This document shows, in pieces, positions 9,806-32,532 of a stretch of DNA of 33,303 nucleotides; positions within the stretch are counted from its first letter, which is position 1, and each line of letters begins with the position of its first letter. This DNA is from Thermoguttaceae bacterium. Its GTDB lineage: Bacteria > Planctomycetota > Planctomycetia > Pirellulales > Thermoguttaceae. Made by a program: the position numbers and the translations under genes. Below the pieces are notes generated by a model. The model was not told where the DNA came from. It did no database searches and saw nothing but the letters and a program-made list of their open reading frames with translations. The stretch covers positions 1 through 33,303 of the forward strand of contig JARKPK010000087.1 in NCBI GenBank assembly GCA_029975295.1, in the 5' to 3' direction.

Positions 9806-9944
9806 GCACGCCCACAGCATGCGCACGATCGATTTCGGGCGCAAATGCTATCATGATATCACTTTACATTGGAACTTGACTTCCTGCGCCATGATCGCTG
9901 GTGAATGGGATCGTTCTACCAGCAACAAACATGGAGGAAGGAAG

Positions 9945-10352
9945 ATGAAGTCCGAATCGCCCGCTGTCAATTCCCTTGAACAAGCCCTCGCCGTCGCCGA
10001 AAAGGTCTTTCAGCAATCGCAGAACTGGGTTGGCTTCTACCGGGAGATTCTGGGCGAACAGGGCATTGTGCGCAAGATGTATCCTACCGGAGAGCAGTGG
10101 GCCGCCTTCTGCAACACCAACGAGTACCGCGAAATCCAACGCATGCTGCGCGAGCTCATGCGTCGCGGGCGAAAGGGCGAAAAGTCGGGCGAACCGACCC
10201 GCGTGATTACCGTCCGGCTGCCGAAAAGCCTGCACGAAAGCCTCCGCTTGGAGGCCTTCGCCACCGAGACCAGCATCAATCAGCTTTGCATCGCCAAACT
10301 GATGCAGGCGTTGGAGATGGATGATGGCAGTGCGAAGCCGACGGAGCAATGA
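9945..10352 (+). CDS. Ribbon-helix-helix protein, HicB-like antitoxin/regulator
   Basis: 135 residues. The ATG at 9945 follows a near-ideal ribosome binding site (GGAGGAAGGA, 9933-9942); the open frame extends upstream to 9819 without another good start. Residues about 86-120 (RVITVRLPKSLHESL, then ETSINQLCIAKLMQAL) form a ribbon-helix-helix DNA-binding fold like the C-terminal domain of HicB antitoxins. Residues 1-85 are helical and contain NWVGFYREILGEQGIVRKMY, not the usual HicB RNase-H-like domain. No HicA-type toxin or other small partner gene is next to it: rnpB faces it 41 bp downstream. It is therefore probably an autonomous transcription regulator. The DNA-binding call is firm, the toxin-antitoxin label is not. 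Confidence 0.75.
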   Translation: MKSESPAVNSLEQALAVAEKVFQQSQNWVGFYREILGEQGIVRKMYPTGEQWAAFCNTNEYREIQRMLRELMRRGRKGEKSGEPTRVITVRLPKSLHESLRLEAFATETSINQLCIAKLMQALEMDDGSAKPTEQ

Positions 10353-10393: not shown

Positions 10394-11099
10394 GGGGTGG
10401 GCGGAACGGTAAGCCGGGTTCTGTTTCCTTCGTGAATACCAGTGCTATACCCGTCGGCCACGCCGACGAATCAGCGACCCTCGACTTCTGCCGGAAGCCG
10501 GCGGGCCATTGAGCCTTCGAGGGCGACCTGTTGATTTTCAGAGTAACAATGCAGCGAAGCCGACCGACGGTCGGTCGGCTCCCGCGGATAGAAGAATGCT
10601 CCGCAGTTGCATTGTTCTTCTGACGATCAACACCCCCGCTGCCTTTCGACGGATGCGTACCGCTATCATCGAAAAACAGCGTCGCTGATCATCACTGGAG
10701 AAGGACGGCGACCATTTATCTAGGACGGCGATTGCTCGCCGCCTCCAGCGGTCTACCCGGAAGTCGATAGCGGCCAAGAACCAACCGCTCCGCCGACTCG
10801 AAGCCGGCGAAATGCTTCCTGTTTGACCTTGCACCCGATGGGGTTTGCCGAGCCAGATCGGTCACCCGACCTGCTGGTAGGCTCTTACCCTACCGTTTCA
10901 CCCTTACCGCGCCGAGAGACAAGCCCACGACGAGGCGGTTTGCTTTCTGTTGCACTTTCCCTGGCCTTTCGGCCGGTGGGTGTTACCCACCATCGTGTCT
11001 TGTGGTGCCCGGACTTTCCTCCCGCCGCCAACAGCCGCCCAAGGGTATGACCCCTCAGACGACGCCGACGACCAGCGGCCGCCTGTTCCGCCCAACCCC
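10394..11099 (-). ncRNA. rnpB: RNase P RNA (type A) with a 280-nt extra arm
   Basis: The catalytic RNA of RNase P, which removes 5' leaders from tRNA precursors. On the minus strand the conserved core is plain: GGGAGGAAAGTCCGGGC (11008-11024, P4 5' side), GTAAGGGTGAAACGGTAGGG (10888-10907), a short P12 with a GUGA loop, and ACAGAACCCGGCTT (10411-10424, P4 3' side). P1 pairs 11085-11099 with 10394-10407, and P2 pairs 11077-11083 with 10707-10713, which fixes both ends. The length, about 706 nt, is nearly twice the usual 350-450 nt. The surplus is 10426-10705, inserted between the 3' strands of P2 and P4, the place of helix P19. It begins and ends with complementary strands (10426-10431/10700-10705, 10439-10444/10693-10698). 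A GGU suited to pair with tRNA 3'-CCA is visible in the presumed L15. Confidence 0.95.
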
Positions 11100-21082: not shown

Positions 21083-21744
21083 GGTTCGGTTCCCCGTTGC
21101 TCAAACAATGTTGGTAATCGGCGATAGGCAACGCCCCGCCGCGAACACTCGCCCAGGCCGAGATCGAGCCAGTCGGGCGAACATCGACTCTCGGCCCCGA
21201 CGCCCACTATACGGCGCGCCAGCAGCGAAAATCAACGGTTGCGGCCGGATCCAGGCCCGCGGGGCTCCCGAGCCGATCGGGCGAACAGGCCGCGACGGCA
21301 AACGTGGAAATGAGTTGACGCCACGCCCCGATGGGGGTAGATTTTCAGGGAGTGCGTCTGCGACACCGGCGATCAAACGATTCGGCCGAACGTGCGCGGA
21401 TGCGACCTCTGTACAACAAGTCCGGCACGGCCGATAGGCGGCCAGCCGGTTTCGTAAACGTGCAGATTGTTGGGGCTCAGATCAGATAGGCCGCAAGGCC
21501 GGCAGGCGGCAGACCGCAGCGGCCACGAAGAGCGGGTTGGCGCATGAGTTGCATGGGTTTCCCGAGGATCAGCGAAAGATAGTGACCTTCGTAAGCAGCA
21601 TGTGATCCTTCGGAAACCGTTCGGCATTGCCCACCGAGTTCGGCCCGGCAGTTGAGCGAGAAGATCAAATCGAGATTCGGGGCAACCGCCGAAGATTGCC
21701 TCGCATCGATTCCCCCATGGCGCAAACGGCTCACGGCGTTCCGC
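21083..21744. other. Divergent intergenic region
   Basis: 662 bp between the ThuA gene and the acetyltransferase. I see only scattered short inverted repeats and no supported gene. The acetyltransferase frame is open from a TTG at 21652, but the conserved family start is near 21745. Confidence 0.45.
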
Positions 21745-32344: not shown

Positions 32345-32532
32345 GACTTAACCGCGTATGCTTCCCATTGTCGACGCTCAGTACCGTAATGCGCCAAGGC
32401 CTGCCAACGAAAGGCCGACGAACAGAGACCGCCCCAAGAGACACTGATTGCATTTGGTCTTCTGACGAGCAATCGGCCCTCACCGCGCCCCCCAACAAAG
32501 CCCGCCGCCCGACCGCAAGGCGACGGGAGGCC

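Follow-up and report, generated by a model that had tools for sequence, protein, structure and literature searches.

A dispersed palindromic element at the centre of a 280-nt P19 arm in the RNase P RNA of a Thermoguttaceae bacterium

The RNase P RNA gene (rnpB) of this Thermoguttaceae genome carries a long, heavily paired arm, and raises the question of where this arm came from and whether its pairing has been selected. The gene lies on the minus strand of a 33,303-nt stretch of DNA, referred to here as the window. The core had been described from the sequence as canonical type A, and the covariance model RF00010 bore this out, with a match at 10699-11083 scoring 252.2 bits against a gathering threshold of 100. 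P1 (10399-10407/11085-11093) formed nine of nine Watson-Crick pairs, and both P1 and the 3' strand of P4, ACAGAACCCGGCUUA (minus strand), were found beyond the insertion. The RF00010 alignment and the 3' P4 motif also confirmed that the 280 nt occupy the P19 position, with the 3' strand of P2 on one side and that of P4 on the other. From P1 to P1 the RNA measured approximately 695-699 nt, and approximately 419 nt without the arm. The 'nearly doubling' of the preliminary description overstated the increase, which is two thirds. An ORF on the plus strand (9819-10352) directly adjoins the 3' end of rnpB, and has a weak HicB-family match (PF05534, E 1.1e-4).

P19 is variable in length and stacks on P2, according to the available part of PMC12974513. 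A search of the order with RF00010 matched 362 of 396 genomes, and P19 was then considered in 133 loci, comprising 102 from the family, the present rnpB and, beyond the family, those of 30 chosen low-scoring genomes. The span from the 3' strand of P2 to the 3' strand of P4 was measured in 125 of these (L076, L084 and L212-L217 were left out), with a median of 30 nt when the present gene was included. The RNA resembles other type A RNase P RNAs (RF00010) in its core and P1 and differs at P19, with a span of 288 nt here versus 10-112 nt in the other 124 loci. When the segment 10426-10705 was compared across relatives, as had been suggested earlier, the arm was present in none of these 124 loci, the genus being represented in the comparison by this one genome. 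Among the measured loci the arm is private to this genome. In another genus of the family, g22, P19 measured 97-112 nt at three loci (L070, L078 and L080, from genomes G029, G028 and G030) and contained several hairpin-like stretches of the form GGGCC...GCCC. A separate repeat capture in that genus was rejected, as the stretch of G029 matched only itself within G029; G028 and G030 each gave a single match, confined to the 3' part of that stretch (query 84-118). In two further loci, L088 (G036) and L208 (G135), P19 is short (39 and 43 nt) although the rnpB matches span 596 and 601 nt, which places the additional length in other parts of these RNAs.

RF00010 reported a single match in the 5.0-Mb draft genome, and the PIN_5 profile, which we take to represent the HARP-type RNase P, gave no match in the same draft. 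A second rnpB or a protein-only RNase P, either of which could have relaxed the demands on this gene, was rejected on these two results, and rnpB is thus probably needed by the cell.

Folding of 10420-10712 gave -144.4 kcal/mol, versus -105.4 for shuffled sequences (sd 5.1; z -7.6; 0 of 200 as low). When the whole RNA was folded, 103.8 pairs were expected within the arm and 0.25 between the arm and the core, and the arm is predicted to fold independently of the core. Folded separately, the 104-nt centre gave a z of -8.7 and the remaining 176 nt a z of -4.95. Several helices proposed earlier reappeared with pairing probabilities of 0.75-1, namely 10426-10431/10700-10705, 10529-10535/10626-10632, 10545-10553/10608-10616 and the side hairpin at 10453-10467 (10453-10458/10462-10467). 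The apical hairpin, placed earlier at 10559-10579 with 9 bp, was recovered in the same probability range but is longer, with 11 bp (10557-10567/10571-10581). Two outer long-range helices of the earlier proposal show full complementarity (10439-10444/10693-10698 and 10470-10478/10681-10689), but their predicted pairing probability was 0.2 or less; in the minimum-energy fold they are replaced by 10637-10651/10667-10681 and 10477-10484/10517-10524. A known RNA family within the arm was rejected, as an Rfam scan of 10409-10725 gave three matches, all below their gathering scores, the best being CRISPR-DR12 (E 0.051; 20.9 bits against 37). The features of the locus are collected in Table 1.

Table 1. 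Coordinates of rnpB, its P19 arm and copies of the dispersed element within the window
Feature	Position	Strand	Basis
rnpB, type A RNase P RNA, P1 to P1	10399..11093	-	5' end at high coordinate; RF00010 252.2 bits and P1 pairing
280-nt arm at P19 position	10426..10705	-	RF00010 alignment, folding, P19 length comparison
Basal P19 helix, 3' strand	10426..10431	-	pairs with 10700-10705, probability 0.84-0.98 in whole RNA
Basal P19 helix, 5' strand	10700..10705	-	predicted pairing with 10426-10431
Outer-arm side hairpin, 10 + 4 bp	10444..10475	-	includes the side hairpin proposed earlier, 10453-10467
Outer-arm side hairpin, 8 + 4 + 5 bp	10477..10524	-	includes 10477-10484/10517-10524, minimum-energy fold
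Outer-arm side hairpin, 15 bp + 3 bp	10637..10681	-	15 bp at 10637-10651/10667-10681, minimum-energy fold
Apical hairpin, 11 bp + 3-nt loop	10557..10581	-	10557-10567/10571-10581 in minimum-energy fold
Copy of dispersed ~104-bp palindromic (MITE-like) element	10529..10632	.	model R1 E 2.9e-18 in a whole-genome search (this copy is one of the 17 sequences building R1); end pattern at both ends
Element inverted end 1	10531..10555	+	1 mismatch to TTGATnnTCAGAnnAnCAATGCAAC
Element inverted end 2	10606..10630	-	0 mismatches
Degenerate element copy elsewhere in window	32369..32474	+	R1 E 9.7e-6
Possible further degenerate element copy in window	21468..21574	+	R1 E 5.0e-4
Element ends, written form			TTGATnnTCAGA

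A DNA search of the arm against the genome returned weak matches, and all of those with E <0.3 fell in the middle of the arm (query 83-192). These matches belong to an element of approximately 100 bp in total, in which TTGATnnTCAGAnnAnCAATGCAAC is followed by approximately 50 variable bases and by the inverted complement of the first arm; the variable middle often resembles GAGGCCGACCAACGGGAGGCCGG at one side. The centre of the arm, 10529-10632, is a copy of this dispersed repeat, and an origin of the arm as an ancestral domain of RNase P is set aside on that ground in the reading preferred below. The possibility that the outer arm (10426-10528 and 10633-10705) is another dispersed repeat was rejected, as the genome matches confined to these parts were short and had E values of 0.37 or more, and the element model found no second copy within the arm.

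When up to 3 mismatches were allowed, the end pattern matched 43 times in this genome (G000) versus 0 times for the reversed control, and twice in the window versus 0.01 expected. A model of the whole element, R1, was built from 17 copies, 15 of them from this genome. It placed the element at no fewer than 87 distinct places in the genome at E <=1.3e-4; at least 144 matches were obtained at E <=1 and at least 22 at E <=1e-9, of which 14 belonged to the training set and 8 were new. These counts are lower bounds, since 150 of 9554 candidates were scored, and the E values are rough owing to a short calibration. Exactly 104 bp were occupied by 37 of the 87 copies (range 93-143 bp). The better copies have 25-bp inverted arms at both ends, and in several others one end is degenerate; in many, a constant distance separates the two ends, the total length is approximately 100 bp and TA often stands alongside. 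As a candidate target-site duplication, TA stands at both ends of some copies (for example C49:8317, G007:C16:6750 and G091:C150:5650), and TG/CA at the rnpB copy. Conserved blocks within the ends are interspersed with variable positions, at which even a single copy can differ from one end to the other. Stop-free frames of at least 450 nt wholly enclosed 23 of 30 copies versus 485 of 526 control stretches, which only hints that the copies avoid genes.

This genome has many copies of the element and its relatives have few. Among 119 genomes of the family, 27 had at least one match to the end pattern, the present genome included, with 43 matches here and 9 in the next highest. Outside this genome there were 52 forward matches in 26 genomes; single matches in relatives mean little, because the reversed control itself had 12 matches, spread over 11 genomes. 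Under stricter filters, at E <=1e-5, R1 gave 33 matches here, one or two each in G007, G014, G023 and G091, and none in 114 of the 119 family genomes. The exact end pattern had 0 matches among the named genomes searched, a search that perhaps did not include the record of the window itself. In nine contigs of genome G092, which belongs to another genus, TTGATCTTCAGATAAAAAACGAAAC is present, unaltered at seven places and differing by one change at the other two; this sequence may be a younger relative of the end of the element.

Bacterial miniature elements of the MITE type are 70-300 bp in length with terminal inverted repeats of 15-30 bp, according to the excerpts available from PMC3733652. 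The present element agreed with them in the properties tested, namely size, terminal inverted repeats and many dispersed copies. Compared with ERIC, NEMIS, RUP and other known bacterial MITEs, its copies are very diverged, TA is common at its ends without being invariable, and it has no known transposase partner. Vioque, in 1997 (NAR 25:3471), is said to have described STRR repeats within rnpB of heterocyst-forming cyanobacteria. That case is alike in having a class of genomic repeat inside rnpB, but the STRRs are, by their name, short tandem repeats, whereas the repeat here is a 104-bp inverted-repeat element. In E. coli, 81 of 157 sRNAs contain REP palindromes (PMC12306157, in the part available). 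These are likewise palindromic repeats in noncoding RNAs, although there the hosts are small regulatory RNAs and the REPs are short; in the passages of that paper at hand, rnpB is present only as a size marker. The palindromic elements of Rickettsia are inserted in frame in genes that likely encode functional proteins, as far as the excerpts of PMC3733652 go, and so lie in protein genes, whereas the palindromic repeat here lies in an RNA gene. In the open-licence literature, which makes for a weak negative, no paper was found on a MITE or palindromic element in RNase P RNA, nor one linking the Rickettsia palindromic elements with RNase P.

The preliminary description had argued that pairing so extensive must be selected. 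As an argument this fails, because the element is an inverted repeat and the palindrome came with it; the right comparison for the copy in rnpB is with the other copies of the element. The nearest other copy was 57-71% identical in the 40 copies checked, and 70% identical for the rnpB copy. The copies are thus old, and the rnpB copy is no fresh insertion. The same figures bear on an assembly artefact or misjoin, an idea invited by a draft of 190 contigs and by the presence of a dispersed repeat in the arm: a short-read misjoin at the element is unlikely because the copies are so dissimilar, and a helix closes the arm at both of its ends just where P19 should lie. An artefact is therefore considered highly improbable.

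All 87 distinct R1 places (E <=1.3e-4, two places matched on both strands being counted once) were folded on their better strand. The rnpB copy had a z of -10.2, versus a mean of -1.88 for the 86 others (sd 1.48, minimum -5.23), and ranked second among the 87 in minimum free energy per length. In a set of 30 copies (five of 35, L163, L178, L184, L222 and L223, were left out for incomplete flanks or odd length) it had a z of -10.0, and the next best -4.8. Substitutions were then compared over 99 consensus columns, bases inserted in a copy being excluded, in 28 copies; L163, L178, L184, L222 and L223 were left out, as were L176 and L189, which are longer matches. The rnpB copy differed from a consensus built without it at 27 of the 99 columns, and is about as diverged as the other copies. 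Its minimum free energy was -56.2, close to the -54.9 of the consensus, versus -29.7 (sd 4.4) when the same substitutions were placed at random, with 0 of 3000 placements as low. The z was about -6, versus -3.1 to +1.6 for the 27 other copies. For the transcribed strand the values were -56.4 versus -28.1 in simulation (sd 4.35; 0 of 2000 as low), corresponding to a z of -6.5, versus -2.9 to +0.8 for the 27 others.

The rnpB copy kept 25 of 27 arm pairs, the best among the 28 copies, and its inner perfect hairpin was the longest (10 bp as counted in that comparison; the next 7). Of 24 consensus pairs in its arms, 20 were unchanged, one was changed on both sides, two on one side and one was broken. 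Its excess stability comes largely from the hairpins of the middle, and not from compensated arm pairs; nor is it specific to the transcribed strand, since the two strands are nearly alike in folding (z -9.4 and -10.0). No conserved RNA structure is claimed for the element family: RNAalifold on 17 copies gave six pairs, of which one had changed on both sides. This is almost no covariation, and the conservation of the ends is at the level of DNA sequence. Taken as a whole, the family bears no sign of RNA-level selection, its ends being kept as in a mobile element.

For the middle 104 nt of the arm, the comparison with sibling copies supports selection on the pairing, and the earlier claim is to this extent supported. 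Either the pairing has been maintained and improved in the rnpB copy, as a transcribed structured RNA would lead one to expect, or this copy stems from an unusually perfect sub-variant for which no close sibling was found, and the first is preferred. The rnpB copy may descend from an ancestor other than the consensus, and with an origin from a perfect sub-variant less selection would be needed. In its full form, the second option makes the palindrome a neutral passenger in a tolerant helix, paired by virtue of its inverted ends or as a very palindromic sub-variant, with no selection in rnpB. The element is indeed inherently an inverted repeat, relatives differ in the length of their P19 (up to the 97-112 nt of g22), and the arms of the rnpB copy have stayed near the consensus, with a single compensated pair. 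A passenger would not, however, be expected to stand so far from the 86 other copies in folding and from the 27 tested alike for their substitutions, and we regard it as unlikely.

A hairpin that had to be recognised for removal would likewise be expected to be under selection for good pairing. RNase III substrates resemble such long hairpin helices, and fragmented 23S rRNAs offer a comparison for an RNA that works in pieces. By this analogy, the arm might be an intervening sequence cut by RNase III or another nuclease, leaving a two-piece RNA joined by P1 and P4. The predicted helices of 11 bp, 15 bp and an imperfect 21 bp or so (7 + 5 + 9) are consistent with such a substrate; this explanation is given a slightly lower probability than that of a passenger.

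The reading that we favour, and consider reasonably probable, is that a MITE-like palindrome was captured in P19 and then held by selection as a putative insulating RNA hairpin. A dispersed palindrome of approximately 104 bp would have inserted in the terminal arm of P19 in the sole RNase P RNA gene found. P19 stands at the margin of the catalytic domain, and it may have tolerated the insertion because of this peripheral position and because an insert closing on itself would spare the core. An insert that was unpaired or mispaired would put at risk the fold of the single RNase P RNA found in the genome, and we propose that changes keeping the insert paired were retained for this reason. Selection for self-pairing would in this way keep approximately 100 extra bases from misfolding the core. 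The insulating role is itself an inference; the trace left by an intervening sequence that is processed out, or by a new domain with a function, would be much the same.

Were the arm a new, functional domain of this universal ribozyme, the mobile palindrome would have been domesticated, as a fold-selected P19 arm of the mature RNA that contributes to stability or to protein or substrate contacts; from the sequence evidence, we hold this to be possible but improbable. If domestication were true, an RNA expansion segment would have been seen arising from a transposable element. How expansion segments come to be added to structured RNAs is still an open question, for which accretion models are among the proposals in the available part of PMC12974513. 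Here the donor can be named, a dispersed palindrome, and its dozens of copies outside rnpB are a built-in comparison. The sibling test is a quantitative way to tell an insertion that is tolerated in an essential RNA from one that is kept for its structure.
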